This document shows, piece after piece, positions 14,501-43,350 of a stretch of 64,000 bases of DNA. The first letter of the stretch is position 1, and each line of letters starts with the position of its first letter. The stretch spans positions 6,219,501 to 6,283,500 of the forward strand of contig CM057146.1 in the NCBI GenBank assembly GCA_029964075.1, read 5' to 3'. The notes under the pieces were generated by a model that saw only the letters and a program-made list of their open reading frames with translations, was not told the origin of the DNA and searched no databases. This DNA comes from Patiria pectinifera. Lineage: Eukaryota > Echinodermata > Asteroidea > Valvatida > Asterinidae. The position numbers and the translations under genes are program-made.

Positions 14501-17500
14501 TTACAAAGTGCCAAGGTATCGGGGACATGCTTTGGATCCTGAGTGTATCAAATGACCCTTTTGTAAATGTGTTTTCTTTGCTAGGACTAAGAAGAAGCCA
14601 GCAGGAGGTGTAGCATTGTTTGGAGATGCAGACATGTTCAGCACGTCACCCAAGGCAGAAGAGCCAGAACCAGCTCCTGTCAAGGTCTGATTTCTAATCA
14701 CTATATTTTGGGTTTTTTTTTGGGGGGGGGGGTTTGCTGATGTAAAAAAAAATCTGTGATGAAAATGGAACAAGCCTAGGCTTGTCAAGTCAAAAGTCTC
14801 AGTTTGAAGTCTTTGGCGATATTGTCAAGCTGGACCTGACAATCTAAGTTTATGGAGTTATTTATACTGGTGGGGTCATGGTGCGTGTGCCCTCGAGCAA
14901 GGCACTTTGTCACTCATTGCTTCTCTCCACCCAGGAGTAAATGGGTACCTGTGAGGGCAGAGATGGTTATTGTGATTGAATTAGCTTCCTTGCGCCTAAC
15001 AGGCAGCATCGAGCTGTATACTCCCAGGGAGCTGAGATGGTATATGGAATGTTTAATTGGCCCAATGATTAGGGGTAATAATAATAATGTAAAGCGCTTT
15101 GATCTTAGTTAAAAGCGCTATATAAGAACCTGTTATTATTATTATTATTATTATTACTCAGTGAGTCGGTCACTCTATCAGTCAGTCAGTGACTCGGTCA
15201 GTCAGAGTACAGTAGACTGAAGGTCCAACAAAAAATGAAAATTCAAAGGCAATGAAAATATGTATAGCAGTCTTTCCATTTTGAAGCTCTCTTTGGGATT
15301 TTCTGTTGTTCGTGAATGGGCTTGTTCTCAACTCGGCATGCTCACATGTAGAGAGAGTCATTCTTGCCCGATAACATGTAGCATTACATGCTATTGACTT
15401 GAACTGGAAGTAATCCCATTGGAACATAACACAATGTTCAGAATCGTGTAACGCTCATGTTTTGTTATGGATTTCTCCAGAAGCGAGACAAGACTCCCAA
15501 ATCCAGAACGACCCTGAGTCTGTTTGACGATGAGGAGCAGGACGATCAGCTCTTTGGTGGTGCAGCACAGGCCAACGGCGATGGACCGGTAAGAACACAA
15601 CCCATTACAATAATTCACATTATAAGTTAACTATCACTTTCTTTTTTAGTAGTTTTTGTAGACTTTGTCCATAGTGACAGCGCATTTTTCAGACTACTTA
15701 TCCCACTACTGATTCAGCAAACTTGGAAAAAGAGGTTTTTGGCCTTTGTTTTGAAATTATTTTTTTATTATTATTATTATTAATCATTTCTGGTAATGAA
15801 ACCAAGGATTTCTCAAAAGCGCCCTAGGCACCGTAGCTCGCAAGCCTGAAGAAACCTGTAGTGAGAAGACAGTGAGAAGAAGTTACAGTTTTAGAGGTGG
15901 GAGGAAAAGCCCAGAAGAATATTCTGGGGAAAACCCACGGAATCAGGCAGGGACTGAAAACCCAATCCACATATTGGCCCAGGTGGGATTCAAACGCGGG
16001 TTACAGCGGTGGAAGGCCAGGAAAGTACCGCTACGCCAACCTGACTCCCCTCCCCAATCAATGGTGCTTGGTCATGCGTGACTGCAGAGATGCAAATAAG
16101 GTATCAATGGCTTGTTAATGAATCATCCTTTAAGATGAAACCACTTTAAAAGTGTTTAAGTTCATAACTTTCACAATTTAACCCGTTATTTTTGAAATAC
16201 TTTTTTTTCTAATACGTCCTGTATAGGACCCTTCTTTGCTACGTACTTTTTGTCAACAACAGCTTGTGCCCAGAGTCCATAGGCCGAAGAATTATCCTGA
16301 TTTAAGAATCTGATATGATTACAATATTTCTGAAGTTCCTTCATGTCGTTGTTTTTATCAGGTGACAAGGCACCGGACTAAGAGCAAGAGTGTGTTTGAT
16401 GATGAGGACGTTCTCTTCAACATCAAAGAAGAAGCGCCCCCTGTTGACTTGTTTGGGTCAACCAGCCCTGTCTCGGCTACCAAGGTAAGAAAGAAACCAA
16501 ATTTCTTTTTTTCCCAGAAACTTCTCCTTTTCTGTCTGTCTTCCTTTCTGAAAAAAATCACACCATTTTTTTTCAACTTTTAGTCTAAATTGACAATATT
16601 TTGTCAGATTTTTTGTGTGCGGAGGCAAAGTTTTGGGAAGAGCCAAAGTCTCAATGGTAGAAGATTTCCATGATTGCTCAGTCAAAGAGAGAATGATTGA
16701 TAATTCCCATGAACTTCAATTTGTTAACTTCATCAGCTAGGCAGTGCTATTGTAGTTTGAAAAGTTGAATAAAATTAAACCAAACTCACAACGATAATTC
16801 AGATTCCTTTTATTTGGTTATTGATACAGGGAAGTGTAATCACAAGGGGACTTGCCATAAACTAGCTCTGCCACGTACTGATTTTAACGGATTTTATTAT
16901 TTTCAAATTATGGATCAAGTAATTAGTATCAATTTAATTATGGCTTGGTGTTTGTAGATTTTCGTGCACATGTTATTAACCACACAATGTGACTTTGCCA
17001 CTGGCAATTGGTGCAGACATGCAGAAGTTGCATTTGTCATGATTTTTTCTGCGAGACAAAATCTAAGTAATCTTCAAGAAACAATGTTGTTCTTCATCCA
17101 AAACAAGTCAAATACACTTATGTCACAAAATGACAAGGTTTTCAAAATTGTCACATGACTTGGTTAGATTATGACAAGTTCTCTTAACTTAATTTGCATC
17201 TTAAAGTGGAAAAATTGTTGAACTTAAGTAGTCAAAGAGCTGTCCGAGGTTCATCACAGCTTTATGAATAGGGATATTAAACTTCTCTTGTGCCCACTAA
17301 AACATCAGCCCGATTCAAACCTCGATAAGCCGCGCTCAGCCTCCGGGGCCTCCAAGAGCCTCTTCAGCGACGAGGACGAGGACGATCTCTTTGCCAAGGC
17401 CACGCCCAAGCCGGCCTCCAAGGCCCCGCCCGCCAAGAAGGCGGAGCCGGCAACCAAGCCAAGGGCCAGTTCCAAGGTGGATCTGTTTGGCGACGACGAT

Positions 17501-20500
17501 GATGATGATGAAGATTTATTCGGGGGAGGCAGGACCAAACCCCCGCCCCTTGAGGTCAAGGCCAAACTGGCCACGCCCGAGGTCAAAGCAAAACCGGCCA
17601 CGCCCGAGGTCAAAGCCAAACCAGCCACGCCCGAGGTCATAGCAAAACCGGCCACGCCCGAGGTCAAGGCAAAACCAGCCACGCCCGAAGTCAAAGCAAA
17701 GCCGGCGAAGAACAAGGAGGCTGTGGATACCGGTGATGTCCCTGCCCACAGTGACCCCTTGTTAGGGGATCAAGTAAGTCGTTCACTTCCAGCAGTAAGA
17801 ATGTTTTTCCCAGATGCATGGCTTGAGGTTATTGGTCTATATTTGTTTATTTTGTTCTTGTCCTTGTTTATCATATAAGTCTGTTTTCCCTATCTGCGTC
17901 TCTGTCTGTTTGTTATTAATCGCTTGTTTCCCGCCTTTCTAATGTACAAGCTGTCCGTTGACAGAAGGTAAGATGAGAAAAACAGCCATTTCTAAAACAA
18001 ACTTTTACTTTTAATATGTTTGGCATTCTGTGTCAGTGGTTGCCAATCCGTATTGGCAATGTGTTAAATAGCCATTTGTTAACCCACTAGTCGCTGCATT
18101 GCCCTAAACCACCTTGTTTAGTGACACTAGTCACAACTCCCCCAACACTTTCTGATTTTGAGGTTCATCAGGATATAAATACAATGTAGTACAATGTAAT
18201 ACCAGTGCTAATGGGTTACGTCGTGCTGACTTCATTTTGATGGAATTTTGCATGCTAAGGGCACATAGGATCATTTGCTTTTCATACATTTTCTTTGTAT
18301 CCAATAATAATAGCTCTCAAAATCCAAAGAAGAATGTTCAAAACGTAACGGTTTCTGCCCAGTGGTTATTACACTTTTCAAGAAATCAGTGAAAAACAAT
18401 TTTGTCTACATGTATATCTGTTTCATTAAAAAAAAAAACCAGTCAGTTTACTGCTTGTTGGAAATCACCTACATTTCTCGATTTCTTCCAAATGACAGCA
18501 AGCCATATGGAATTATTTCACGGGGTGTTTAGTACCAATACAATCTTTAATCCAAGTAAGCTTTTTGATAATAATTTTGTAGGTTACTTTTGGAATAATT
18601 GCAATTGATCCTATACGCCTTGAAGGCCCACACTACTCCACTGCAAAACCAAATGTATTGGACTCCTCCAGATTTGGGGAAGTAATAACAGACTGAGCCA
18701 TTAAACTCCTGGCCCTGCGCGGCACTAGGAAACACAACATGCACACCTCGTCAATGCACTGTAGTATGCAATGATGTGCATCATCAACTCAGACAGACCT
18801 TTGTGCACGTATGTCTGACATCAATCAAGGCTGTGATTGGTCAACATCATTGGAGGGGGGGGGGCCCTAAATGGATCGGTCTGTTATCTGGAAACAATTA
18901 TATATTGTTGTTTATACTCACATCATCATCAGTTGTTTAATAGCATGCCCTTCGTTCTGTTTCAGTCGCCTCCCCCCGCTGCCACTAAACCCAAGAAGCC
19001 GGCCGGCGCGGTCTCCATGTTTGGGGGCTCTGACCCCTCGGCAATCACTAGACAGATCTCCTCCGAGTACAGCAAGGAGGAAAAGAAGGAGGAAGAAGAG
19101 CCCAAGACGCAGGATAAGGTAGGCCTGGAAGAACCGGAGGATCAAGGCTCGGAAGAAACAAGTATCTGGTTATAAATACAGTGATTTGCGACTCCCTCTG
19201 GCCTCAAATTACCTTAAATTTTGGATTGTGCGTAAGGTAAAAGATAACGTAGGCCTGGAAAAATCAGAAGACCAAGGTTACAAACAAACTGTTAGCTGCG
19301 TACAAAACGATTAAAATAAATACTTTTTGACTCCAACGCTGACGTAAAATGGCAGTGAAATATTGTCGGTTGACATCTTCAGAATTCAAGACGCACCTTC
19401 TGTGGAACATACTTATTTGGCTACTAACTGTTCAAGCATCGTTTTTCAGTAATTTGTACATTTGCGTGTACATCACTGTGGAAGACCCTGCCAAAGTGTA
19501 TGGTTTTGAATTGCATGGAACAATCTGTATGTACAACAAGTGTACCCATAGTTTCACTCATTTAGTCGTGTACCCAGAATGTCCCTGGCCATGTCACATA
19601 ACTAAACAAAAATCTGTGTACGGAATGAGGTGTCAATTCAGTATTTTTCAGTTTTTTGAAATATTTGTTTTAAACCCAAAAGATCTGAAATTGCATCAAA
19701 AAGCTTTCATTGAAAACCCTGTCATCTTTAGTAATTAGCCCATAACACTCTTTGATGTGAAAAGAAGCACAAAAACATTTCATGGTCATTCTGGGAAGAA
19801 TCTTAAAATAGGAAAAAAAGAAAGTAGCGAATTGTAGATGTGGTAATCTAGATGCATGACTGTAGCTATGTGTAGTAACACCAGTTGAAAGTAGTCATTG
19901 TTACCATTTTAAAATTTCCTTGTACAGGGTGAGTAAAAAAAAACCGAAACCCAAATGTCGGGACCATTGTTTTAGTGAAGTTCTGCATGTAGCACTTTCG
20001 AAATCTAGGATATGAAAGCCCAATTCATAAGCTTTCTTTTAGTGCAAGACTTATTCAAATTACTCATGTACTTTTCAAGTTACGGAGTTTTAAACACAAC
20101 CACCGTTTTAAGGTTCTGTCCACGGATCACAAAAAAGTTCAGTTTTCTTTCAGCTAAACGAAAACAAATCACATAAGAATGTGTGTGAATTCTGTTCGTT
20201 TTGCTGAAAGAACACACACCTTTTTTGTGATCTGTGGACAGAACTTGGATCTGTGGACAGAACGTGGACAGAAATGGTGTTTTCCTGGATATCTAGCTAC
20301 TTGTTCATTCGTGATTTTACCCAAGATAAGATAATGCATGTGTGTATGATTGCCTCCCACTTCCAAAAACAAACAGCGCAACCGTACGCCAAGTGCGAGT
20401 TCCATGTCGGAGAACATCAGCCCCAAGCCGTTTTCGGCAGCGTCTTCCAATAAGCCAGCCTCTGTCATCCGCTCAGTCAAACCCCCCTTGGCTAAGGCTG

Positions 20501-23500
20501 GGGGAAAGCGAATTAGCATGTTACAGGTTGGACCATTTTCATTTTCAATATTATCCTTTTATTTCCGCTTTCATTTTTCACAGCTAGTAGCAGTTCCTAT
20601 TCTTTACTTTCTCTCATTTCATGAGATTCCTCTTTCTTAAAACGCAGCTTAATTACAATTTGTCTTTCATGTGCCGTTCTTGGTGTAACATTGCTAATGC
20701 TAGGTTCACACATTTCTGAATTATTGCCACAAACACCCTGATCTGTCCCGAATAAAAATTCTTGATGGCAGCGGAAGAAATTAGCATCGATTCCCTGTTT
20801 GTAAGAATAACTTAAGAGTGAAACGAAAATAATCAAGAACTAGGTACGAATTGGAAGCTGAATCAGAACGAACCAAGCCGAACGATTGCGAATTAGTACA
20901 GAATAATACCGAATTGTAGCGATGTTGTCAAGAATAACATATGAATATTACTCAAGAATTATCCAGAATTATCCAGAAATGACCCAGAATTAGGCCGATT
21001 TGGTGTATTCTTAAGTCATTCTTATAATATTCTTACATTTGTAATGATTCGGCAGGATTCTGGACTGTAAACACCAAAAATAACTCCATGGATGAAACTT
21101 GTAAGAATGCTGTAAGAATATCCAGAATCAGTTATGAATACAGCAAGAATGAATCAAGAATTGAGATTGTTTCCCGAATCACCCTGACAGCTTTGAACAT
21201 GTCCAAAATTGTTGGGGCGATTCCTGATCTTCAACAGTCTTTCACCGAACTAACAGAATCATCCCGAGGCAGCCAAGAACCATTCCCCGATTATACTCAA
21301 GAGTTGCTATTTGCGGTGATTTGGCTTAAAATGTGTGAACCTAGCATAAATAGTTGCTCTTTTTATTGAAGTACTGTTTTGCTAATGCATTCCCTTCCAG
21401 TTTCCGTTCTTTGTTGAGTCATGAAATTGAAGGTTCCTCTCTCTCTCTCTTGAGTCACAAAATTCAAGTAAACTCAGTGTTGCCAAGTTCAAGATTTGTT
21501 ATTCGCGGGAGTCTTCATGGTTCACTAATGGGTACAGAAGTTGAATAAGGATTGTTGTCCTTTTGATAGATGACCCCAAGCCATTTCAACTTATTCCAGT
21601 TTACCACTGGTTTACTTTATTACTAGCAGATCTCATGCTAGTTGACCTATTGCTAACCCCAAGCCATTTCAATTTATTCCAGTTTACCACTGGTTTACTT
21701 CATTACTAGCAGATCTCATGCTAGTTGACCTATTGCTAACCCCAAGCCATTTCAACTTACTCCAGTTTACCACTGGTTTATTTCATTACTAGCAGATCTC
21801 ATGCTAGTTGACCTATTGCTAACCCCAAGCCATTTCAACTTGTTCCAGTTTACCACTGGTTTATTTTATTACTAGCAGATCTCATGCTAGTTGACCTATT
21901 GCTAACCCCAAGCCATTTCAACTTACTCCAGTTTACCACTGGTTTACTTCATTACTAGCAGATCTCATGCTAGTTGACCTATTGCTAGTTGAAGTTTATT
22001 CTAGTTGACCTTTAGTTGTATAAACTGCTTACTAGAAGCCATTGTGCTAAGTGTGAGGTGTTCTGGCAGAATGGGACAGAACTGGGCAGAGGTCGAAAAG
22101 AGGGTTTGCGGGTATTCAAAATCAATATTTCAAAAAAGTAAAAAAGTTTTGAGTTTTGTAGTCGTGAAAATGAAGGTATCCTATTTTTTTCCCCCTTAAA
22201 AACACTTATATTCCACGACTTTTGTAAATTGCTTTAAAATATGTATAGTAAAAAATCCCAATCAGCCCCATACGTTTTTTTTTGCATTTTCTACACCACA
22301 GCCTGTGCCTGGTTCTGTCTCATTTTGCAAAAGTGCCTCACAATTAAACTCATGCTTGTATAAACGGTTCTCACATGTATTACCACTTTACATTGCTTTG
22401 GTAGTTTTTCTTCTCCCGTTTAGCACATCTTTGCTTGTTTCGTTGTAACCCCAAATCATGTGTATGCACCTTTGCAATGCTTATCGACCATATCACCATG
22501 CACAGTTAGCTGATGGTTGTAGCATGGAGAAATTATTTCTCCATGGTTGTAGCAACATGAAATTCATTGTTTTTGTATCATCTGTTTTGATAAAGTTTTT
22601 GCAATATTGCATCCCATGTTTTGTAAAGGACCATTCTATTTACAAGCAATATTGGGGCTTTGATTGTGAAATTGTTTGTTAAATTGTTTGTTACAACTTT
22701 GTTATAAAAAAATATTACTGTCATTCTGATTGTTCAGTTAACCCGCAATGGGTTGCTAGTGCGCAAAGCGCTCGCCTCTAGATATATGGCTCGGGTTTGA
22801 TTCCTGGCTCGAACCATGTGGGAGTAGGGTTGTTCAATGATTCTCTCCTGTGCCAAGTGGGGTTTGGGGGGGGGGGCTCTCCAGTGTTCCTCCCTCTGCC
22901 AAAAAATCAGTACTTCGATCTCTGGCTGTGCTTCTTGGTCAGACATGGGTCGTATGGCGGCAGCCTAAGGCGTCTTTACATGCCAGCGGCCCGACCACGT
23001 TGATTAACTCCACAAATTAAAAGTCATAAAAAAGGACCCATTTGTTTTGTATTTTGTTTTTGTGGCTTGAAACTGGAATGATCCTTCATATCTGCTGACA
23101 TATTTGATCCATTAAACCTGCTATCATATTACATTCTGTGATTTCAGGGGCAAAAGTCATGATGCGAACATTTCAATTTCCAAAATATACCATCGGTCAT
23201 TTTGATTCCGTGCAAAAGAGGGGTCTACAGAGTTTACCTATATTGTTACCATGGCGATTACAAGTATAGGCTGCAAACATTGCAAAATGCTCCAGGCAAA
23301 TAATACACATTTTGTACACGTACTTGTGAGATGAAAGTGCACATAGTAACGTTTGCTATGACATATGCCTCTGAACGTTTATTTAAAACTTTGCACCGTA
23401 CTGTTGCTTGTTAAATTTTGAAAACAGTCAAAAAGCTTGCTGAAATCTGGTTGATTATGTTCAGGGTAACCTCCATTCTTACACTTCAACCATCTTGTAG

Positions 23501-26500
23501 CTATTGGTTTCTCACTGCACATCTCTGCACTGCTAGATAACTTTGACTGTTTATCGTCCAAACTTTGTACTCTTACCTTTTTTTGCAGCTAAGCTAAGCT
23601 AATTCTTTAGATGACTAGTCAGTGTGGTTGGTTCAATTTCAAGTAGACTGTAATGCAGTAGACTGAAGAATTCAGCCCCTGCCCACGACGGTGTTACCAA
23701 TCACAACCTTGAGTAGTGTCCAACATGCGCGCATGCTCACATGATGCGCGCATGCCCACATGATGCGCGCATGCCCACATGATGCGCGCATGCTCACATG
23801 ATGCGTGTGGCTTGAATACACAGTGTGGCACTGAAGAGACATAGTATCGTTGCCCTAAGTGTGCAGTGGGCAGTGTGCAGTAGGTGGGGCTTACTGAATC
23901 AGTCTTTTAATGCTTCCTTAAGTATTTTTTGTATATTTTAAAGCTCTAAGCAATGTATAGAACAGGTAGTTAAGTTAAGAATCAATGTATGTACTTGATT
24001 TAAATCACATTTTCTTGTCTTAGTTAACCCGTGTAATTATTGCAACTTGTGGTTCATGGGATTATCTGTCACTTTCTCATATTTTCGCCTGAATAGGTAA
24101 CTCTTCTCACTCACAAGCACTCCACGGGCAAATTCTTACTCTTGGGTCATCTTACTCTCTGTACTGCATGCCTAATCTCCGTGTAAAAGTTTTGGTGAAA
24201 ACTTTTTCACTTTTTTCTGTTTCATCCTGTAACAGTTTTCTTACTTCCATGACACATTAATGTACCATTGATCATTGTGCATGCTTTTTAAAAACTTTGT
24301 AGAACGTAATGTGCGATAAAGTTGAATGTGTTGTGCTTAACCCAAAGTCATCTCTTTGTTGGATTCCCGTACGTTTAGGTTTTTTTCTTGTTGTGTACAT
24401 TTTTTTGTCTACACCCAGTTACTGCCGTCCACCATTCAAGTGCAAGCCCTGATGCCGATGGGGAGGGCCCCCTCTTCGCACCCCGCCCTTAAACCCAAAC
24501 TATCCAGCACAGCCACCCAGACACCCCCACCTAGGCCCCGTGTGCCTCCTGTCAGATCTCTGTCGCCTCGTGCTCGGCCCCTGTCACCGCCACCCAAGCA
24601 TTTATATCCAAAGGCTACATATAGACCCCATTCCCCTCCCACCAGGCCTTTGTCACCTGCAACCAGACCCTTGTCCCCGTCAACTAGACCCCTGTCACCC
24701 CCCAGCAGGCCTCTTTCTCCCACTGCTAGACCACTCTCGCCACCCACTCGCTCATTGTCACCCCCAACACGGCCTCTGTCACCCCCTCCTAGGCTCGTAT
24801 CCCCAGTAGACAAACCCCCATCTCTTCCTCTAAGATCCCTATCTCCACAATCCAGACCTCTGTCACCTCTTCACTCTGTCTCTCCACTCCACCGACCTGG
24901 GTCAATACTGCGACCAATATCCCCACCTCCTCCTCAAACCAGTCATGGGAAGTTGGAAATAATCCTGCCCAGGGCAGTAAAAAAATGTCTCAAAATCATC
25001 GACCACAGAGGTGCAAAGAAAGCAAAACATGCTCAGGGAAAACACAAAGGAGTCTCTAATGAGAGCAGTGATATAGAAAAGGCCTCCAAAGCACCTAGTG
25101 ATTGTTGTGAACAGGTACTCAAACAGCACAGAATCAACAGGAACAACAACAGCCCAACAAGCCCAGACAAGATGCGTAGCAGACATCCATCCGATCCCAG
25201 CAGCATTAAGAAGAAGCAGCACTCAAGATTGAAATTCAGTCCCAGTGACGCCCTATTCACAGTCAGCTCAAAGGCAATGTCAATGACACCAAGACTGTTT
25301 CACAGAGAAGGGGACAAACCCAAATGCCTTCCCCTGACCCCAGAAGAAGCACGACCTCCACCACAACGACCCTCAGCACCCCCACCAAGGGCTCCCCCAC
25401 CTCCCCTTATTCCTGATTCGTGTGATTCAGCATCTGACTCGGCCTCGGCACATGACAGCAGTAGCCAGCTTAGCCAAGACGATTATGACTTACGCACCTC
25501 AGTACTACCTGATCTACCAATTCCCACCTGGTCACCCAGAAGGGCCCCTCCTATTCCTCTTCAGAGGCTTGAAGCTGTCAATGGCCAGTGCTTTGACCCT
25601 CCGCACAAACCTGACAAGCCTCCCTTGAGCCCCCTTCTGGTATTTTCTACCAATCTGTCTGTCAAAACGTCAAGGATCAGCCCTTGTTCCTCCCCCTCAC
25701 CTCCTCGGTCTCCCGTTCGGTTTCCCTATAATGCCTCTCCAAGACTTCCAGGACGAAGGCATATCCATCCTCCTCCTGGAGACTCTCCTCCCGAGTTGCC
25801 AAGAAGACATAATCATCACCCTTTACCCAATCCTCCCTTGACTGATTACCAGGAGAGACCAGTTCACCCAAGCTCATCCGTTTCTGAACTATCCAATGGA
25901 ACGAATGGACTCATGCCATCATTGCCACTGTGTAGAAGGATGCTGCCACCAATACCATCCGATGAGCCATACCACTGTAGAGAAACTTCAGCAGACTTTG
26001 CCTTGTCCCTGTATGAGCAAAGAACCAATCAAAACCCGTTACCAGGTATGAATGGCATAAGGGACCAATCACCAAAGCGACAAATCGATTCAGCATTCAG
26101 AAACAAATCAAGACACGTCAGGTTCACACCTGGTCAAGGAGACGTGAATCATGCTGACTGCCTGAGAGCCTCTCCTAAACCTGGCTTTGCTTCCATGCAC
26201 AAATCTTCCTCACCATTTCTGGCTACAAAGCCCCTGCCACCAATCCCACCTTCTGATGTCTCCCATCGTCCAAATCGAAAAAATATCCATCATTCTACCA
26301 AACCTCTCCCACCGATCCCTTCTTCCACTCAGAGTCATAACACTGGGCATCCTGTCCGTGACTCATCATCCCCAACGCCTCACCTTAATAAGGTTAAGCC
26401 ATTACCTGCCATCCCACAGAGTGACTCAAGCATGGCAAAGGCATCCTCATCAAAATCCAGAATGGCCTCAGACTGTGCCCCATTGAAGTCTCAAGAAACC

Positions 26501-29500
26501 TCGCACCAGCGGCACAAACCATTACCTGACATACCTCACTGTGTATCACTCAGGTCAAAGAACTTAAACGAGGACTCCGATGTAAAACCTGTGGCATCTG
26601 TACCGAGACTTCCTCCTAAAACCCAATTGTTTGCATCAAAGTCACAACAGGTGACTTCCGGATTTCACAAGAAGGACAACATCCGGCATCCATTGGATGA
26701 ATTGGACAGCTGTCCTGTTGAATCCAAATACACCCTGGATAATCATGACCCTCAACGAGGGCCCAGGCTCAGAAAACATTCCAGAAACAGCTCAAGGTTT
26801 GTCCGACCACCTTCTGGGGATTCAGAGCTTTTGCGGAAGATGGAGAAACGGAAAGCAGCTATCGAATTGTCCATCTCAAAGGCATCCATGGAGAAGAAGA
26901 ACCGCCTTAAATTGAAAGCACTAAGTGAAAACAGTCAGACTTGTTCTCAGATGGAAAGTAAAATTGATCTAAGCAGAAAACAAAGGCAGAAAGATGATCC
27001 AGAACTGCCCCCTAAAAGGCACATTCAAAATACTGCATATTTTCAGTACCCAGACACAAATTGTGGCTCCCAGAAGCCTTTCAAACCAGTGGTTGATGAA
27101 AATGATCATTTCTTGCCTATACAGCATTCTCCTGATTCAGACGCCATGAAGGACACAGATTCAGAACCAGATACCTCCTTATGTTTGGACTCTTCAATCC
27201 CTCGGGCTCCACCTCCTCCCCCTCCACCAGAGCCTCCACCTCTTCCACCTAGAGAGACCACCCGACCTCCGACACTTCCTCCAAGGAAATCCCAAGAAGT
27301 TTTTGCCAAAAATAGAATGCAAAGTACAGACACAGATTCTATTCAGACCAGTCGCACCACAAGTGGTAGCAGGATTCGGACAAAAACCCCTCCATCACCG
27401 CTACCGAGACCTGACATTATTTCCCAGAGAAAGAGAAGTGACCAGAGAATCACGTCACCATTGCTCAGAAACTTTTCCTCTGGCATTCACTGTCAAAGAT
27501 TCGGCTCTACCGATTCAAGTCCATGTCAAAGTCCTTCCCGAGTGGAGCCTTCATCAGGTCAATCTGAACTGATGGCATTGTTGGAGAAGAAGAGGGCAGA
27601 GATTGAATCTGATGGCTCTCGGCATTCCTCCATCTCCTCCATTCACTCCAACAGCAGCAGATCAAGATTTTCTCCACCAGTAAGATCCCCAAACAGTTAC
27701 AAATTTGGTATTAACCAGTCAGCGCCAGCAGGTGAGTCGGAGCTTATGTCCAAGCTAGCAAGGAAAAGAGAAGCTATCGAGAGAGCACCTTCCTCTGATC
27801 CCTGCCCTTCTTTAGCTCGAGAGAATCAAACCTCTGGGCCAAGGCGAACTCCAAGTCATGGGCAGGAGGCTTCTAAAGATCAATCGGAGTTGATGCAAAA
27901 GCTAGCGAGGAAAAGGATACAAGCTGAATCTAAACCTGTACTGACAGCTGACTCTAACTGTGCGCCACAGGGAAGGCACATCCAAAAAGAAAGGTCAACG
28001 AACCCCAGCTATTCACAGGAACCTTCCAGTGAACAATCCGAGTTGATGCAAAAGCTGGCCAGGAAAAAGGTGGAAGCCGAATCAAGTGGATCAGTAAACA
28101 GACATTTAGAAGCAGGAAGTCCAAGGGAAAACTGTTTGCTTTTGGTGAAAAATCCTGAGCATAGGAGAAACCCAAGCAGTTCTCATCAACCCTCCAGTGA
28201 TCAATCTGAACTGATGGCAAAGCTGGAACGGAAAAGAAAACAAGTAGAATCAATTCCCTCACCATCGAGACCTAACAGGAAGGAAAGTGACACTTTCAAG
28301 GATCGCCAGAAAGAGAGGGAGCCATTTCCACCAATCAAAAGTCCAGAGCAGACGAGAAATCCACGCTACACCCAGGAAAATTTGAACGATCAGTCAGAGT
28401 TGATGAAGAAGCTGGAAAGAAAACGTGCAGAAGCAGACACGGGGATTGTGTCATCGAGGCAAGAACACAACAGCTCTCCAACAACAAAGCTGCCGCAACT
28501 TGTACCTCCTAAGGGTTCAAGAAATAAAAAGAACCATCCCCTTTGTCTTTCCCCCACAGAAATGCCGGCAGATATTTTCCCGAGGCAAGGGGCTGTCGCG
28601 TCTACAAAAACCAGTGTTCAAAATGATTCCCTTAATGGACCAAGACATTTCACCAAAGGTAGCCTAAAGGATACATTATTAGGAACCGATGACTTGTCCA
28701 AGTTTGAGGATGGGAAATCAGAAATTGACCAGGACTTCCAGCGGAACAAACCCATTCAAAAAAGTTCAAGTATACCTTTCCCAGAGATGTCCTCATTGTC
28801 TACCCTGCCCTGGAGGCCCTCCAAAAAAGTACAACGTGTGAACTTCTCGCCACAAAACTCCTTCGACAAACAACGGAAGAGAGACTCAGGTAGTGGAGGT
28901 AAGGAGAGTGAAATCCCCAAGGTGCCCTTCAGACCTAAAAATGTTCGCAGGGAGATGTCGAGGGGATCCCAGGAATTCCAGAAACTCAAACGCTGTTCTT
29001 CCGGAAAACAAACTAATTGCAAGCGGATGAGTGAGTCTCTAGATCAGGTACAGACTAATGATGTCTCTTGCCGTGGGAACGCAGAAAATGAAGCTCCTAA
29101 AGTGCCAAGGAGAACCAAAAAAGTAAAGAAGGTGCCATCCAAGGGAGCTCAGGATGTCCAGAAGTACAGGCACTCCCCTTCAGTGCCAGGCTCCAAAATT
29201 GTTAATCCAGGAACCCTGAGAAATAGCAAGCTGATGAACCGATCGCAGGATTCTTGTTCTGGTGAAAGCACTGAATATGATGTCCCCAAGGTACCCAGGA
29301 AAACAAGGAACTTGCGGAAGGCACCCTCCAGGGGATCTTACGATTTCCAGAAACTCAAAGCCTCCCCCTCTGCTCCAGCATCCAAAGTGGCCAGTCCCAG
29401 GACCCTCACCAGCAGCAAGCTGATGAACCGATCCGCCGACAAAATAGTTTACAAGGCTGACCAGAGTAAGCCTGGTCCGGCAGTCCTGAGGTCAAAGGTG

Positions 29501-32500
29501 AGGCGGAAACCAAGCGAGAAGCGTGAGAAGCCCCCGGGTGGTGTCCACCTTAGGAGGAGACCCTCAGTGAAAAAGTTGGCCTCAAAGAGGGTTTCTCTCA
29601 AAGTCAAGCGGAATTCCAAAACCCTGTCACCCTCTCTGCCCCAGGACAGCCACTCCAGGGCCCCCTGTGCACCCAAGACTCTCCCCAAACCGAGCTGCGC
29701 CAAGAGAATCCAGGCAGCGTGGTTGCTGGGCTCGGCAGTTAGTGGTGGCAACAACACTTCCTCCTCACCGCCAAGGGTGCACAAAGGTCCAAATGAAAGC
29801 ACGGTCCGCAAACTTCAGGTGTGGTTGATGCACGTTCAGCAAAATGTTGGCATGGGAATGGTGAATGCTGCACTTGGATTCCTGGATAATAAACTCAAAG
29901 AAGTCACTTCATCAGTGTTGACAAGCTATGTCTCAAAATGGGGCTGGGTGTTAGATTACCTAACTTTTGAAGAATTTTCTGAACACGTCCTCGTGGAGGT
30001 GAAGTTTGAGTTTTAAAATGTGCGTCGATCTGCATGACCTGTGTGTTTCATTGCAAAGGGTTGAGGACAGAAGGAGAGTAGCTTTTACTTTGTGCAAGTG
30101 CATGCGTTTTTGTTTTGTGCATGTAGAAAATTATTTATAACACAGTTGTATGTAAAGAAAAATTTAGATCTGTTTCCAAATGCCATTTTACAAATCAAGT
30201 ATTTGAATTTGTAATTTGGAATTAAAATAACAAAATGCAAGATATTACACAGGAAAAATTCGGTGTAGGTTGCAGGTTCGACAGGCTTGTAGTTTCAGTA
30301 TAAAGGGTCAACATGATGGTGAATGAAAGATTCTCAGATGCCTTTTTTTCACATTAGTTTCACTTCGTTCAGCGAGTTGTGACAGGCATAAAACAGTTTG
30401 TATTTTGCTGCTATGGCATAGTGCCGTGCTAGATAGCACAAACAGACAAAATGTATGGTGACTCGACCAGCGAGTGTACGTCTTCAAAGCTAGTTTGTAC
30501 TATGTTTAGGACCAAATGTTTGTATTTTATTTATTTTTCGTAATAACATTGTATCCATTTTAACAATGCCTAGTAGGCACTGTATGTTGGCTTTATGGCC
30601 AACAAGTAAACTAAAGGGATGTCAATGGATTTTTCTTATAATTGTCAAACTACAAAGGAAAGTTTTGGTTAACATTTTTTATCAAAGTGCAACATAAAAG
30701 CTAGCATTTGATTTTAAAGGTGAAAGTTTTATCAAAATGTCCTTTATATATGCTCAAGGTGTTAGTATGATTATATATACATGCATTCATGGCATTTGAA
30801 TAATAAATTAATGTATGCTTCTTTTTTCATGTTTTTTTTCATTCTTGCATGTTCTTTGGATATCTTGGATTTTTCGTTCTTCATTCTCACTTGAATCTTG
30901 TTTCCTGCACGCACCCTCAGCATTTTGCCCATAATAACAGCATAACACTTTTACACCTTGCACATATTTTTGCATATCTCAAATGTATTCTAACCAACGA
31001 TGTCATCTTTTCTCAAATTCCAGTCCAACATAGTGATAGACCCCACAGCAATGAGGCCAGGGGCATCCCCACCCTCCCGGGAGGTTGAGCCCGAGGGAGT
31101 GTCGTTCGACGAGCCGCCGAAACTCCAGACCCTCAGCAGTCTCAACAAGGTAAGGCATTCACTCTGGACTTACAAGACAACAAAAAGCACATATCTGAAG
31201 TGACCAAAATGATTCTACAGTAAACTCCAGCTAAACCGGCACTCTCGGGACCTGAGAATTTGTGACGACTTACGCGAATGCCGATATATGCTATAAGTCG
31301 TCATTTTGCCGACTTACATGAATGGTCTTTTGCACACATGATTCATTGCACTAATTGGCTTCGATTTACCCTGGATTATCTCCTTAATGCTTGAGTTGAA
31401 TCCAGCAAATTAATCCTCGAATTGTATCATCACGTTTGGGGTATTGATAGTGGAGACCACGATACATAACAGTAACGAATTAAATGCGTGCGTGGTCCGG
31501 TATATACCACCCGGGTCACAGTGGCGGAAGGCAAGGAAAGTACCGCTACGCCAACCTGACTCCCCAATTGACTACGCCAACCTTGTCTGTCTAAACAGTA
31601 TTTGTCTTGTTTCAACGTCTGTTTTCAGATCATTTTTATAGCCATTTTAGATACCAACATTGTTAAAATTTGTCCCTTTCTTCAAAATGTTCCCTTACTG
31701 AGGAAAATCCCCCCAAAATGTCCTCAATCACCTATTCTCATCCATCCTGTTCAACAAAATTTCCAGGGACGTGCCAAGGTTTCCACCAAGCGTCGTGCCC
31801 CCTCGCGCCGTCTCCGCACAGAGGGGGCGACCACGGCAATCCCTGAAGCCCTCGGCAGCAGTCCTGCCGGCTTGCTCAGTACCTCCCCTGAACCGCTACC
31901 CAAGGAGAGGTCACCGCCTTCTGGCCTCCCAGACGTCACTTCCAACCCTCCAGTCTCGTCCAGTAAACCCAAAGGTATGAAATCGGTTTTTGGGATTACT
32001 GTAAGGCAAGCCTTCTTTTTTTTTTTGGTTAACCCAACAATAAGCAATCAAATGAAAGATTTCTCAAAATCTGCATACTTTTAGTACAGGTTTTTAAATT
32101 ATCTTCATTATAAGTTTAACAAATAATAAAAAGGAATAGGGCCTAACATGTCAGTCCTAGCAGGCAAAACTCCAACAGTCCATGAATGAGCACTTCTTTT
32201 TAGACAAGTTCATTGAAACAATGGACCGATCCAGTAAGCACCGCCCCTTGGTGTTCTGACCAATCACAGCCGTGATTTATGTCCGACGTGCGTGCACTAA
32301 AGTCCGACATGCGTTCATGCGCGTATGATGCGCGCGTAAGGAAAATGCAGCGTGGCATTGGAGAGGAGCACGTGTTAATTTGCCCACGTGCGCACTGGGC
32401 GGAGCTTACTGGATCGGTCCATTGTGATGCGATCAAGCTACATGAGTCGTTTGTCGACCTTGGTCAAATTTTTAATTACAGATTTGAAAAGAGCACAATC

Positions 32501-35500
32501 TCGGCATTACTGCTATGAAAACCGCATGCTGGTACCATCTTTAGTTAAAAAATTATGGAAGTTGGAACACCAAGAGATGTGATGAAGTGATGTGATGAAG
32601 TGGCCCTATTTTGGCCTGTATCTCCAAACAAAAATTCCCGATAAACGACTGATTTAGCTTGATCGCATCACAATTAACATTGACAAAATCCGTCGGTGCA
32701 AGATTTGGCAACTTGCAAAATGGTTATATTCGACCCAAATGTACAAAAAGAATTTGAGTCGGAAGTTGCCCATGGTACTTCCTGCCAAGTTCCGCTGCAC
32801 GGATTGAATCCGCCATCTTGAAACCTCAATCAAATTCGTAATTTGGCATCAAGCGTAAGTTGGCAACAGTGGTTCATACGTTCATGTCTCAGTTAACCCA
32901 GTTATCAAGGCTTGAAAATACGTAATATAGGTCAGACATGCGCATGAGACCAAATGTCATACAGGGTGAGTCAGAATGATTTGGCCACAAATTAATGAAA
33001 CTATTAACAATAAGTAGCAGTTATCAAAACAAGTGCAATTGTTATAGATATTTTATATGCTGGTATTTTGGACATATTTGGTGAAAGTTTCATGTATATC
33101 CATTGTACCATTTTGAAGAAAAACGCTAGCAAAGGTTCCATGGTTCAACAAATTTATAGAAATCGCGTACTGATATGACTTAATTGTTTGAAATGCAGTT
33201 ACATCAGTACGCCAGCCTATAACATATCTCAAATGCACTTGTTTTGATAATTGCTACATATTTTTAATATTTTCTTTAATTTGGGTCCAGATCACTCTGA
33301 CTCGCCCTGTACAGGCATGTGGCATAACTCATGTTTTACATGTATGACACGATGCTGAACATCTTAAAACATTACTTCAAACAGCGTAACTTGTCCAGAT
33401 GTTGGCAGATACCTGACTGGGTACAACTATTCTGTGCTTATAAAACATCTTCAATGTCTGGTTTCCACAGAGAAAGACATTCCCTCGTCAGATGTGACTG
33501 ACTTTAGTAGTCCGCTGGACTTCACGCCGAGCGGGATAACGCTTCCTCCGACACCGTTGGATGACGACAAGCCCAAGCCCAAGCCCAAATCCAAGACCTC
33601 GGACATGTTTGGGAATGACGACCTCTTTGGTGATGTTCCCAAGGCAACCGTCTCAGCAAAAGCTGATGACGACGACCTCTTCGCCTCAGTACCCAAAAAA
33701 AGTGAAAAGACCAAATCGCCGCTGGACATTGACGAGGATTTGTTTGGCTCCAAGCCCCAGACGACGGAGAAGAAGGCCCCCTCGGATCCATTCGGGGAGG
33801 ATCTTTTAGGAGAAGGCCCAGGGAGCAAGAAACAAGGGAAGAAGTCGGGAAAGACGAAAGTGCCGGCCCTGGACGATGATGATCTGTTCGGAACCGATAC
33901 AACCAAAAAGAAAGGTGTGAGACACTTTAGACAAGACATAGAGATGGCTATAGTCAGAGTTAGAGTCAAGTCCTGACACGTCCTGACAAGTCCTCACAAG
34001 CCAATCACAGTGGCAAGCTACTCAAAGATGTGTGACCAAGGCATTCCTTTGTCATTGTTCATCTCCCGTTACTTGTGACCACCTGTAATAGACTCTTGAT
34101 TTGACCAGTGATGGACTTATGATTTGACTTGTGGCAGGCTTGGCTTCAGCGCTTTCAAAATGTTATGAGCTGGATCAATGCCGGTACTTGGGAGTTGACT
34201 TTGTTCACACTTTGACAAATTTCTGGCAGGTAAAGCTTCTTCTACCAGATTGAAATTGAACCAAGGCCAAATTGCGTGGAGCTAGTGGTCAGAAAATATT
34301 GCTTAGCAAATGTATGTACTAAAGCACAAATCTAAAGACAACCAGTCAGTAGTAATGCACATCAAATTAAATTTTATTTTGTCTGTTACCCTTTTTCGCT
34401 AACCGAAACTTTACTGTGTTCAGTACAGAGCAGCACAGTGACATTATACAAATAATGAATGCTTGTGAGTGCAATGGTAAGAATAATTTCATGAGGTGAC
34501 AGATGAAATGTTCCATTCCACGAGGCGAAGCCGAGTTGAATGGAACATTCCATCTTTCAACGAATGAAAATATTCTCACCATTGCCTGAATGCAAAACAC
34601 TCATTATTTGTTTTATATAACGTCCAAGTAGATCTTTGTCATTCGATTGGGGGATAAAACTTTAAGAACAAACAAAACTCACAAAATTGTATCATATCCA
34701 CTACTTTTTTTCAGCTTGTTCAAGGGTAACAAAGTTTAAATGTCAAATCATTGACAATAATGAAAATTAACGTTGTAAGTTTGTAAAACAATGCATAAAA
34801 AAATCAAGGCAACTGCATCCACTTCAAAGGCAAGTCTTGTACTGCTATAACGCATACTATTGGTCTAAATAGCTCAAAGATTGTATAGCGCCAGGCTGCT
34901 TCGCATCTAAGCATGCGCACGGCGTGCAATAGATCAAAAGGGATGGGACAAAAATGCATGGTGAATGGAACCAAAAATGCACGGTTATGACGTAGGCCGT
35001 GCAATGGTTCGATTAATGAATGCCGTGTGACCTACAATCCTCCAATCAAATGTGATTCGGCAACATGTGCAGTGACAGTACAATGGTACTTCTAATCACA
35101 GTGCAATAGTACTTCCATTGCACTGTGCCCTGCGCGCCATGCGCGCGCCGTGCGTTGGTACGAGTAATTCAATGACATGTGATCAACGATCCACCAATCA
35201 GATGACGGGGATTTATTCAGGTGTTGTATAAATACAAATAATGAATGCTTATGAGTGCAATGGTAAGAATAATTTCATGAGGTGACAAATGGAATGGTCC
35301 ATTCCATGAGGTGAAGCTAGGTGGCATGGAACATTCCATCTGGCACGAAATGAAATTATTCTTTCCATTGCACGAAGGTGAAACATTCATTATTTGTTTT
35401 ATACAACGCCTGAATAAATCCACGTCATCTGATTGGCAACTCGTAAACCGGTACTATGAATGTACAACATCAGAGCCATCACTGCTGTGTTATACGTGTA

Positions 35501-37990: not shown

Positions 37991-39103
37991 CAATTAGAAA
38001 TCCTAATTTAACCCCTGACCTCCACTTGGATAATCAGCAGCATAACTTGAAGGAGAGGGCAAGTTTCTCCTAACAGGAGTCGCTTAGCGGAAAATACCGC
38101 TTGCTAAATTTTCTTGGTGAGCAGAAATTAGCCGGGCACCAGCAATAAACAGTATACATCACATGGCGTTTTAGCTGGTAACCCATTTTGGTTAAGCGTG
38201 TATTTTCTGTGCTAAGCATTTTTGCGTGCCTAGCAGCTAGGTGAAATTTGCCCCTGAAGCCTTCACACCCCTCATTTTGAATTTACATTTTTACAAAAGT
38301 TTAAAAACTCGAAACTCAGCCAATCATTGTTATACTTTTGGAGAACCTGAATTGTTCCTAAATTTCCCTTGTTAACCATATTAACCCCACTGGCATTTGC
38401 GTATGATTTTTTTATGCTCAAAAATTATGTTTCTTAGTGAATTGGCCTTAATTGTAAAGGTCTGGTATCTGCCACTGAAAGATAATTCGGAAACAAAACA
38501 TAGAATCTTGTAAATGTATTTTTTACTTTTTCCACAAACATTTGGCAGTCAATGTATTTTTGAACACATGGTCATCATATGACCAACAAGCAAAGGACGA
38601 AACCAATATTGGTTTGAATTGATGCAGTCATTAATGCAGTTATTTTGGCTTTGCATATCGTATTTTTGATTTAGCGAAAACACTGCTGATCTTGTTATCC
38701 ATTGTGTCATTGTTATGCGACACAAAACACATGACGATGTGATTTAGCAAAAAAATGTGACCAATGGCTGGTGTTTGGTCTTCTTAAAATTTCTGTCTTC
38801 TGTTGTTCGTATATGGGCAAACTGTTTTATTTTATTATTGGAGCGAGATATGCAAAACATTTTCGACACAGGTCAGTAGTGCGAATACAGACCCGTTCAC
38901 GTAATGGTGTCAGGGAAAGTTGATTGGGTTTTGCTTGGGCAATGATATGCGCAGTTTAGTTTCTAGATTATGAGGCCAGCATGATTTTTTCCCCCCCCCC
39001 ATTTTGAGCGAGAAATGTAACTTGCACATGGCATTCGACATGATTCGTTGGCGTCTGTCACATAAGTATGTTCAAGGCTTTCGTACGGTTGGCTAAACTA
39101 GGG

Positions 39104-39523
39104 TTATTTTTGTAATCGCTTGTTACATATCGAGTGAGACAGTAGTACAAAACATCTGGTAGTGTCTTGCTGGGTGATGGACCCTCTCCAATGTCTGACA
39201 TTCCAACCTCTCATGACATACATGTTCAGTGCTGGTTGACTGGCGGATGTCTGCGTGGCAACTTCATGCACAGTCAGTTTTCTGGGGCAGATTATGTCGG
39301 GAATGAGCAAGAAGTGTATCCATTGCATCATCAAGCCCCATAGACCCTTTGCAAGCGGTGCCCTCACGGAGGGCAGATTCAATGACAATGAAAACACAAA
39401 CTGTCTCCTCAGGTGGTTCGCAGACGGAGGAACAAAGTCATGTTCTTTAAGGTGTCTAATGAATTGATTGTAGGCTATGCGCAGCAATACTGCAATCACC
39501 ATAACTCCATAAATGAGACCCAA
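39104..39523 (-). other. Unrecognised open frame within duplication, copy 1
   Basis: 139 codons with a core shared with 40853-41161: IHFLLIPDIICPRKLTVHEV, ATQTSAS and NVRHWRGSITQQDTTRCFVL. I do not recognise a family. No splice or promoter context was found. The frame stays open in both copies, but the copies are too alike for that to prove selection. Confidence 0.25.
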
Positions 39524-39607
39524 ATACTGGACTACCTCAGTGTATTAGGTAGTCCAGTATTTGGGTCTCATGGGGCTATGATTACCTCAGCTACATGTAT
39601 GTACATA

Positions 39608-40128
39608 TAGGTTGTCCCACCCAAAAAAAACCTAACAATCGAAAACTAATTAATAAAGGTATAGTGCATGTGAGTTTTGGAATATTTTCAAATTACCTCT
39701 TAAAGTCAGATAACCAGTCTACCATACAAAGTTTATTTCATTCAAATCGATACATTGGAACAAACGCTATGCTTCATCAAACTCAAGGGTTGAAAATCGT
39801 CTTGGGCCACTTTCCTTGAAAGTGAGAAAGCGCAGTTAGAGAAACACACAAAGGATGTATTTCCTTTGTTCAAGAGTAACGTGTGACTTACTCTACCGGC
39901 TTCGATCTGTAAACTTGATAAATGACAAAGTGCCCAGGTGTTTTTGAAGTCCCTGTATCAAGTGCTGTATCTTTTGAACAAGACATCTTAATGAAACCAT
40001 CTAAAAAGCATTTGGAAGACCAATTATTCTACTCATCAGCAATACAGTAAGACACGATTTTGAATACTACCCCCACTCTTCTGAAAACATGCCCGATTCG
40101 ATTGTTAATTTTTTTGTGGGACAACCTG
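39608..40128. mobile_element. Mariner-like MITE in duplication copy 1
   Basis: Left end TAGGTTGTCCCACCC and right end GTGGGACAACCTG are inverted (core GTTGTCCCAC, with CTAACAATCG / CGATTGTTAA further in), with TA next to both ends. The partner copy is at 41353-41868. Confidence 0.75.
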
Positions 40129-40852
40129 TATGGGTGTCTGCAATGAACAGCAGGCTGATGTAGTCGAGTCCAACGCAAGTCCAGTCACAAGTAAATCCCA
40201 ATTCCAGTCAACAAGTCCAGTCTCAAGTAACAATGGCTTAACAACAACACAGGAATGCCTTTGTCAAAGCTCATTTGAATAGCTTGTGAGTTGAATTGGG
40301 ACTGGATGATATGACTTTTGTGATGGACTTGCAGGCCAAATCGGTCCGAATATTGGTTTGAATTAATACAGTCATTGTAAAAGTGTTGTTATTTTGGCTT
40401 TGCATATCGTGTTTTTGATTTAGCGAAAACACTGCTGATCTTGTTATCCATTGTGTCATTGTTATGCGACACAAAACACATGACGATGTGATTTAGCAAA
40501 AAAAATGTGACCAAATGGGCTGGTTTTTGGTCTTTTTCAAATGTCTGTCTTCTGTTGTTCATATATGGGCAAACTGTTATAAATTTTATTATTGGAGCGA
40601 GATATGCAAAACATTATGGACACAGGTCAGTAGTGCGAATACAGACCCGTTCACGTAATGGTGTCAGGGAAAGTTGATTGGGTCTTGCTTGGGCAATGAT
40701 ATGCGCAGTTTAGTTTCTAGATTATGAGGCCAGCATGATTTTTTTTCCCCATTTTGAGCGAGAAATGTAACTTGCACATGGCATTCGACATGATTCGTTG
40801 GCGTCTGTCTCATAAGTATGTTCAAGGATTTCGTAGGGTTGGCTAACTAGGG

Positions 40853-41161
40853 TTATTTTTGTAATCGCTTGTTACATATCGAGTGAGACAGTAGTACAAA
40901 ACATCTGGTAGTGTCTTGCTGGGTGATGGACCCTCTCCAATGTCTGACATTCCAACCTCTCATGACATACATGTTCAGTGATAGCTGACTGGCTGATGTC
41001 TGCGTGGCAACTTCACGCACAGTCAGTTTTCTGGGGCAGATTATGTCGGGAATGAGCAAGAAGTGTATCCATTGCATCATCCAGCCGCATAGACACTTTG
41101 CAAGCGGTGCCCTCACGGAGGGCAGATTCAGTGACAATGAAAACACACACTGTCTCCTCAA
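40853..41161 (-). other. Unrecognised open frame within duplication, copy 2
   Basis: Second copy of the frame at 39104-39523, shorter at its start (102 codons, from MRRQCVFSLSLNLPS). Differences from copy 1 include CLCGWMM for GLWGLMM and VREVAT for VHEVAT. Confidence 0.25.
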
Positions 41162-41352
41162 GTGGTTCGCAGACAGAGGAACAAAGTCATGTTCTTTAAG
41201 GTGTCTAATGAATTGACTATAGGCTATTCACAGCAATACTGCGATCACCATAACCCCATTAATGAGACCCAAATACTGGACTAGTATATTAGGCAGTCCA
41301 GTATTTGGGCCCATGAGGCTATGATTACCTCAGACACATGTACATGTACATG

Positions 41353-41868
41353 TAGGTTGTCCCACAAAAAACTAACAATCGAAAACCAATTAATAAAGGT
41401 ATAGTGCGTGTGAGTTTTGGAATATTTTCAAATTACCTCTTAAAGTCAGATAACCAATCTACCATACAAAGTTTATTTCATTCAAATCGATGCATTGGAA
41501 CAAACGCTATGCTTCATCGAACTCAAGGGTTGAAAATCGTCTTGGGCCACTTTCCTTGAAAGTGAGAAAGCGCAGTTAGAGAAACACACAAAGGATTTAT
41601 TTCCTTTGTTCAAGAGTAACGTGTGACTTATTCTACCGGCTTCGATCTGTAAACTTGATAAATGAAAAAGTGGCCCAAGTGGTTTTTCAAGTCCCTGTAT
41701 CAAGTGCTGTATCTTTTGAACGAAACATCTTAACGAAACTGTCTGAAAAGCATTTGGAAGACCAATTATTCTACTCATCAGCAATACAGTAAGACACGAT
41801 TTTGAATACTACCCCCACTTTTCTGAAAACATGCCCGATTCGACTGGATTTTTTTGTGGGGCAACCTG
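41353..41868. mobile_element. Mariner-like MITE in duplication copy 2
   Basis: Same element as 39608-40128, carried by the larger duplication (TAGGTTGTCCCACAAAAAAC at left, TTTTTGTGGGGCAACCTG at right). Confidence 0.75.
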
Positions 41869-43350
41869 TATGGGTTTCTGCAATGAACAGCAGGCTGATG
41901 TAGTCGAGTCCAACGCAAGTCCAGTCACAAGTAAATCCCAATTCCAGTCAACAAGTCCAGTCACAAGTAACAATGGCTTAACAACAACACAGGAATGCCT
42001 TTTGTCAAAGCTCAGTTGAATAGCTTGTGATTTGAATTGGGACTGGATGATATGACTTTTGTGATGGACTTGCAGGCCAGTAAATCGGTCCGAAATCGCC
42101 TACGCCGGCCAAATCACAATTTGCATACCCTCTAATTCTTCGCCTATTTTATTTGAGCATATTGTGGGCCGTGAACTTGAGGGTTTGTAAAAAATATGGG
42201 TGGAAGCCGTGCCCAGGACTGTGAGCTTGTAGTTCTGTGCAGTTTGGATGAAATTGGAGCCCTAAAAGCGCTCTATTTTGCAATGGAGTGTAGGCGTCGT
42301 TTTCGCGATGGGTTTTAGGACCATTTTAAGGGGTGATCATCTTCGGATGTAAATTTCTCCTAAAAGTCATCAGTTAACCCCCCGAAAATTGAAAAGAAAA
42401 TGAAAGATGATGAAAGTAGCTTTAATTTGATGTGTGTCTGGAATACCTTGGAGAGTTGTGAGTATTTTCCATCTATTTTTGAAGTGGGGGCATTTATCAT
42501 TTGGGTCTATGGCAGTCTATTTACTGGTCTGCAACCTGCAGCTAGGGACTTGTGATGGACTCGACCACATCCGTCATGAACAGCGCCACCGTGTGTTCTG
42601 TGGTGCCCAGTTCAAAATCTGTCCCTGGCCACCATGGCCATACATAATATTGAAAATCATGTAATGCACATTAATTTGCACTGATTAATTGCACAACAGC
42701 CTGTATGCATCGGGAAGTTACGTGATCTGGCAGTCTTCCAAAATTAAACAAACCTAATGGATGCACTCGGATCATTTTTGTGAACCGTCATCTTCATGTT
42801 CTTGCATTTATATTTCCATCTCATGCAAGCAAGTACATTTTTTTGTTCATGGCTATTTGCAACATGTATTTCTGGCTTACGCTTACTATACAATGTACCA
42901 GTTCTGTATTGTCATTAATGTTTATTGTGTTTGCTGCAAAAGAAATTGCAACTCCTCAATTCTGGTATGTTATATTTGCCAGCAGACCGTATTTTAAAAG
43001 ATAAATCAGTTGTATACGACATGTATATGATTATCTGAAATTTTCAACCAAACTGTAACCTCTCAATTTTGTTTCTGTAATAACATCTCGGCGATTTCAG
43101 TTTCATGTGAAGAAATGGTTACCACAAAATTTGAAGAAAAAAAACCACATCATAATGTATTTTTGGGTACAATTTTGTAGTGTGCTTTTCTGAAATACTT
43201 GTGGCTTTTGGGGGACATTATTTCATTGATTTTAACCCATTCTAGGATCAACATGCATTCCTTTTTGTACAGATTTACAAGGTAAACTTTTGATACATTT
43301 CGAATTATTCAACCAAACACATACGTTGTTGGTCCCCCAAAAGTGGAATT

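Follow-up and report, generated by a model that had tools for sequence, protein, structure and literature searches.

The closest described analogues of the element reported here are the giant ankyrins (ANK2 and ANK3, and Drosophila Ank2), scaffold genes that carry a single very long exon and are distributed across all major bilaterian phyla (available part of PMC5135030). The gene concerned here is WASHC2, whose product, FAM21, recruits capping protein via a CPI motif. Retromer attaches at sites along the tail of FAM21, and the WASH complex obtains its capping protein from dynactin (available part of PMC8047104). CPI motifs, with the consensus LxHxTxxRPK(6x)P, have a role in placing capping protein at membranes (available part of PMC4598739). 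In the present work we analysed a stretch of 64,000 nucleotides from the sea star Patiria pectinifera (contig CM057146.1, positions 6,219,501 to 6,283,500, assembly GCA_029964075.1), called here the window, which contains the tail of a WASHC2 gene and, within it, an open segment of 5.4 kb. This segment, the giant exon, is quite likely a real coding exon of WASHC2 that some transcripts include in frame and others probably skip.

The giant exon and its host gene

The giant exon is exactly 5,400 bases long, contains no internal stop, and is bordered by AG at its 5' end and GT at its 3' end, both in phase 0. It lies in a stop-to-stop frame of 1,891 codons (24341-30013, forward strand). In 200 first-order Markov simulations of 64 kb (six frames), the longest stop-free run averaged 169 codons and peaked at 248, so the open frame is not explained by chance; 1,000 simulations with the make-up of the giant exon itself (one frame) gave runs of at most 315 codons. 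The splice sites were scored with a generic matrix, entered by hand, and ranked across the 21 exons of the WASHC2 model, where the giant exon has the ninth best of 21 acceptors and the fourth best of 20 donors. Past the donor, 65 further codons are open (29819-30013) and contain no proline or arginine, an outcome with a probability of about 4e-8 under the giant exon composition. This read-through is probably intron; a retained-intron C-terminus could also fit. The three-base periodicity along the giant exon is uneven, ranging from 0.5 to 8.0 times the mean power.

The WASHC2 model runs from 3955 to 37944 on the forward strand, with 20 of its 20 junctions in frame, and represents the tail of the protein, the WASH-binding head being upstream of the window. 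The other 20 exons measure 82-465 bases each, and the reading closes with IFDDPLNAMGK and a TAA stop (37942-37944), an end like that of vertebrate WASHC2. Outside the giant exon there are 32 LF pairs in 1,125 residues, 14 of them directly preceded by D or E. The Pfam family CAP-ZIP_m (WASH complex subunit, CapZ-interacting), which includes FAM21 and CapZIP, matches the exons from p to the end (405 residues) with 36.0 bits and exons n, p and q together (161 residues) with 49.3 bits, the cut-off being 28.2. With respect to the CPI consensus, LSSLNKGRAKVSTKRRAP, encoded by exons p and q, has correctly spaced L, R and K and a P that comes one residue late; it lacks the H, the T and the P of RPK, and the CAP-ZIP_m profile spans it. 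The downstream exons matched no PDB chain. Exon n has the weakest acceptor of the 21 and a donor ranking 18th of 20, which hints at regulated use. A 27-base in-frame repeat of about 5.7 copies (EVKAKPATP; 17552-17706) is present in the 465-base exon.

Coding status and selection

Three families of internal repeats allowed us to examine selection on the giant exon. The SEL[LM] repeat is present in 7 copies (2,000 shuffles: mean 0.063, maximum 2). When all 21 pairs of copies were compared over 20 codons each, the pooled proportions of synonymous (pS) and non-synonymous (pN) differences were 0.795 and 0.328 in frame, and 0.42/0.46 and 0.45/0.43 in the two other frames, in which stop codons were skipped. 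Synonymous sites were saturated in 14 of the 21 pairs, and the ratio of non-synonymous to synonymous substitution (dN/dS) in the remaining seven was 0.21-0.49. These copies had been picked by a protein motif, which depresses pN, and two controls were run. Without the four anchor codons, pS/pN was 0.775/0.396 in frame, and five copies detected on DNA gave 0.78/0.26 in frame and 0.28/0.38 and 0.36/0.34 out of frame. The PKVP repeats behave similarly (0.64/0.30 in frame; 0.17/0.44 and 0.46/0.37 out of frame), as do the SPxxRPL-type heptads (pooled 0.80/0.17 in frame; 0.38/0.37 and 0.07/0.49 in the other frames). Because the synonymous excess is confined to this one of the three frames, the sequence shows that the giant exon is translated and its repeats are under purifying selection. 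A preliminary description of this DNA had proposed a single open 5,400-base frame with clean in-phase splice sites, between exons of 82-465 bases and inside the FAM21 tail, and had regarded it as coding. The boundaries, the sizes of the 20 other exons, the CAP-ZIP_m scores of the flanks and the in-frame synonymous excess all agree with it.

The probable junction with the downstream WASHC2 exons

Positions 5-32 of CAP-ZIP_m span the join between exons n and p (20526 to 31024; ISMLQ followed by SNIVIDPTA, exon p starting with SNIVIDPTAMRPGASP), and positions 9-32 match the join between the giant exon end and exon p. Exons p and q alone (65 residues) scored 43.3 bits. The score was 52.7 or 51.9 bits when 19 or 34 residues of the exon n end were added, 52.2 bits with the last 29 residues of the giant exon, and 42.1, 43.9 and 41.9 bits with three other pieces of the giant exon used as controls. 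As a further control, 60 segments taken in 30-residue steps across the whole giant exon were each fused to exon p, and CAP-ZIP_m at E<=0.05 matched one of the 60, namely the true end. The Chisel profile (SMPX family) at E<=1 also took a single fused segment, again the true end. Only two of the 20 exon ends read LQ, those of exon n and the giant exon, and LQ occurs only twice within the latter. Since its own end rebuilds the CAP-ZIP_m motif with 31024, the giant exon looks built for splicing onto WASHC2, and there looks to be protein-level evidence for the joining of 29818 to 31024. On the upstream partner, which may be exon n, exon m (also of phase 0) or a private first exon, the junction motif is silent. 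A copy of the exon p start was suspected at the 5' end of the giant exon and was rejected, since Pfam gave nothing there.

Composition, motifs and predicted structure

The giant exon product (about 199 kDa) contains 14.9% S, 14.2% P, 8.8% R and 8.2% K. Its net charge is +143, versus -30 and +3 in the modelled tail on either side, and all 3 of its LF pairs lack a preceding acidic residue. The repeat families are located in Table 1; four of the [KRM]xLPxIP repeats read KPLPxIP and one RMLPPIP. The SH3, profilin and actin motifs announced in the preliminary description fared differently. SH3 class I motifs are in excess (7 vs a shuffle mean of 1.0, maximum 4; the KPLPxIP-type repeats are included), and class II motifs only moderately so, within the shuffle range (16 vs mean 6.5, maximum 16). 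The profilin claim comes down to one proline run that shuffles also produce (3 overlapping matches vs mean 0.5, maximum 4), and the SEL[LM] repeats were discarded as WH2 motifs, five overlapping pieces giving no Pfam WH2 match at E<=10. EVH1-like sites number 7 (mean 2.2, maximum 6), but five of them coincide with the LPxIP repeats listed above. EB-type SxIP (3 vs mean 1.5), CD2AP/CIN85 Px[PA]xxR (4 vs 5.5), SP/TP sites (55 vs 51.7) and 14-3-3-like motifs (16 vs 9.3, maximum 19) were no more frequent in the giant exon than the shuffles allow.

The link to the WASHC2 exons made in that description holds at the 3' end, which fits the next exon at 31024. Added capping-protein motifs are not supported. 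Extra CPI motifs in the PKVP repeats were rejected (the alignment score of 29 against the gene's own CPI was reached by 448 of 500 and 340 of 1,000 shuffles), as were those of the form R[PVAKR][KT]x6P (2 vs mean 1.14, reached in 319 of 1,000). The pattern [KR][KR]xPS[RK], chosen after being seen, occurs twice (shuffle mean 0.18; 17 of 1,000).

Structure was predicted for residues 1041-1344 and 1430-1800 with AlphaFold2 in single-sequence mode. The first piece (mean pLDDT 62.6, pTM 0.19) shows six long helices, one per SEL[LM] repeat there, whose ten-residue blocks peak at 82-93, together with two short ones in other parts; between the helices the confidence is low. No structure is predicted for the final 371 residues (mean pLDDT 43.6). 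The SEL[LM] helices are moderately amphipathic, falling in the 68th-97th percentile of the giant exon. The module is basic and predicted to be mostly disordered. The whole giant exon had no Pfam match at E<=1, and its pieces gave only sub-threshold ones (CAMSAP_CC1, E 0.07; RBM39linker, E 4.8). Against PDB, the giant exon found 6 chains at E<=1 (best 0.33, ribosomal S11) and the SEL[LM] profile 5 chains at E<=10 (best 0.14), all taken as chance. No relatives were confirmed in the viral and prokaryote contig collections (1 and 9 pattern stretches), a search whose scope did not extend to animals.

Table 1. Positions of the WASHC2 exons and of the giant-exon features in the window (residue numbers refer to the giant exon).
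Feature	Position	Strand	Remarks
Twelve upstream WASHC2 tail exons	3955-17773 (3955-4097 ... 17309-17773)	+	Acidic LF repeats; exon model
Exon m	18966-19118	+	Phase-0 end; possible alternative upstream partner of the giant exon; exon model
Exon n	20377-20526	+	Ends ISMLQ, completes the CAP-ZIP_m motif; weakest acceptor of 21
Giant exon	24419-29818	+	1,800 codons, phase 0-0, S/P/R/K-rich, net charge +143
SPxxRPL-type heptads	24563-24862	+	9 copies, residues 49-148; 9 vs shuffle mean 0.2, maximum 2
[KRM]xLPxIP repeats	25937-26536	+	Five, residues 507-706, SH3 class I type; 5 vs shuffle mean 0.0, maximum 1
First SEL[LM] repeat	26822-26875	+	Residues 802-819
Seven-proline run	27194-27286	+	With PxLPPR sites, residues 926-956
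Six further SELMxKLxRKR-type repeats	27563-28447	+	Residues 1049-1343; predicted isolated helices between disordered linkers
Three PKVP repeats	28916-29377	+	From residues 1500, 1560 and 1623; predicted disordered
Giant exon end, ESTVRKLQ	29795-29818	+	Joined to 31024, completes the CAP-ZIP_m N-terminal motif
Exon p	31024-31149	+	SNIVIDPTAMRPGASP and first half of the CPI region
Exon q	31767-31974	+	GRAKVSTKRRAPSRR, second half of the CPI region
Four downstream WASHC2 exons	33471-37944	+	LF repeats; exon model

Alternative readings

Several results weigh against the assignment of the giant exon to WASHC2 as one unit. The model relies on weak acceptors at 17309, 20377 and 31767, picked for keeping the frame. 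The junction gain amounts to about 9 bits, the short fragment scoring 16.5 bits, under the 28.2 required by Pfam, and at E<=1 CAP-ZIP_m takes two of the 60 fused segments, one of them not the true end. The scores also depend on piece length, since longer exon n pieces score less (the 49.3 bits of exons n, p and q become 45.1 with exon m), and the join of exon n to the giant exon had no Pfam match. The functional role of a giant form is inferred from motifs and single-sequence models. Inside the giant exon, donors at 27731, 28898 and 29497 and 19 acceptors scoring above 8 outscore its own terminal sites, so shorter versions are possible. That several shorter exons or internal splicing take the place of one 5.4-kb exon is nevertheless very improbable. 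One ankyrin-G isoform likewise uses only part of its giant exon (available part of PMC5422562), but here the whole frame is open, in-frame repeats cover most of it, and removal of internal parts would lose selected repeats.

An alternative promoter is an unlikely reading that keeps some weight. In this case, a private first exon, or an ATG at 24452 or 24458 (codons 12 and 14 of the giant exon, in frame), would be followed by the giant exon and 31024 onward, giving a CapZIP-like capping-protein regulator without the WASH head. The CAP-ZIP_m motif is indeed completed by the giant end without exon n, and the upstream join is uncertain because of the poor splice sites of exon n. However, acceptor 24419 is good and in phase with WASHC2, and both early ATGs have C at -3. 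Slightly less likely is that one WASHC2 locus makes two proteins, an ordinary WASH subunit (n-p) and a giant capping-protein regulator (giant-p), the giant exon either taking the place of exon n or starting a head-less, CapZIP-like form; exon n and the giant exon would be alternatives, since each carries the LQ that completes the same motif. On this reading, vertebrate CapZIP might have arisen from such a dual locus by duplication and specialisation. An independent gene with first and last exons of its own, nested within the intron of WASHC2, would account for the composition and charge unlike those of the host, for the scarcity of LF pairs (3 vs 32 in the other exons) and for AATAAA at 29888 and 30802, 3' of the giant exon. 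Nevertheless, the giant end forms the junction motif with 31024, phase 0-0 suits a phase-0 intron (1 in 9 under random phases), and the coding composition stops at the splice donor, not at a stop codon, which make a nested gene highly unlikely.

Proposed role of the giant form

The giant exon probably yields a giant isoform of a known protein, the host gene being known and the variant new within the searches made. Regulated inclusion would produce either ordinary WASHC2 (20526 joined to 31024) or a giant form (upstream exon, giant exon, 31024). The acidic repeats that bind retromer and the site for capping protein would be retained in the latter, which would gain, immediately before this site, a basic flexible arm with a mean reach of about 45 nm according to a generic chain formula. 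The SH3 ligands and short helices of the arm could gather SH3-domain actin regulators near the site where FAM21 handles capping protein, and its charge and helices could bring filaments or acidic membrane to the same place. The giant form might thus serve as an endosomal scaffold for actin in particular cell types, comparable to giant ankyrins in the axon.

WASHC2 connects retromer, WASH and capping protein on endosomes. If the giant form is real, some animals would have a complete basic module for SH3 docking next to the capping-protein site, and giant exons would be a recurrent route from housekeeping to specialised scaffold beyond the ankyrins. The junction motif provides a sequence-only test applicable to other animal genomes.

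Other observations in the window

The intron before the giant exon carries an 83-base unit in five copies, 96% matching (21573-21987). Just past the WASHC2 stop there is a head-to-tail duplication of about 1,745 bases, 94% identical (38605-42094). CpG observed/expected, calculated in 4-kb steps, is 0.41-0.79 over WASHC2 (1-40 kb) and reaches 1.05 at 60-64 kb; it is 0.41 in the giant exon and 0.74 in the other WASHC2 exons. This pattern suggests gene-body methylation. Inspection by eye of 59959-60600 (forward strand) suggested that a membrane protein of the claudin/PMP22 type, with a long S/T-rich loop, may begin there, and Pfam matched it only weakly (Mucin, E 0.0045; TMEM37, E 0.073).

Comparison with known systems

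Among the papers listed in searches of the openly licensed literature, there was no report of a giant WASHC2 exon or of FAM21, CapZIP and SMPX treated together, nor anything on CapZIP-FAM21 paralogy or anything relevant on WASHC2 splicing. The locus shares with WASHC2 (FAM21) the acidic LF-repeat tail and the CAP-ZIP_m/CPI region, and would differ in the 1,800-residue segment inside the latter, which the preliminary description took to be absent from vertebrate FAM21 and lineage-specific. Neither CapZIP (RCSD1) nor SMPX (Chisel) is known to have a comparable giant segment. The SMPX profile matches the same junction motif with E 0.0014 for the giant end and 0.021-0.15 for the exon n end, under its cut-off (19.2 vs 27 bits). 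LQ followed by SNIVIDPTAMRPGASP, matched by CAP-ZIP_m and, below cut-off, by Chisel, is possibly an unrecognised motif common to FAM21, CapZIP and SMPX. The SEL[LM] repeats have an LMxxL helical pattern and a basic end, as in WH2 and Ena-VASP actin-binding helices, from which they differ by the absence of LKKV.

The giant ankyrin exons remain the closest analogue, in that a very long in-frame exon of biased composition is present in an otherwise ordinary scaffold gene. The giant exon is likewise very long, in frame, symmetric, predicted to be mostly disordered, and placed in a conserved scaffold gene. Its strong internal donors would allow a partial use like that of ankyrin-G. In three species with a common ankyrin insertion site, the available part of PMC5422562 describes no significant homology there beyond composition. 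The giant ankyrins belong to another gene and another machinery and are S- and E-rich, whereas the giant WASHC2 exon, known from DNA sequence alone, is basic and P/S-rich.

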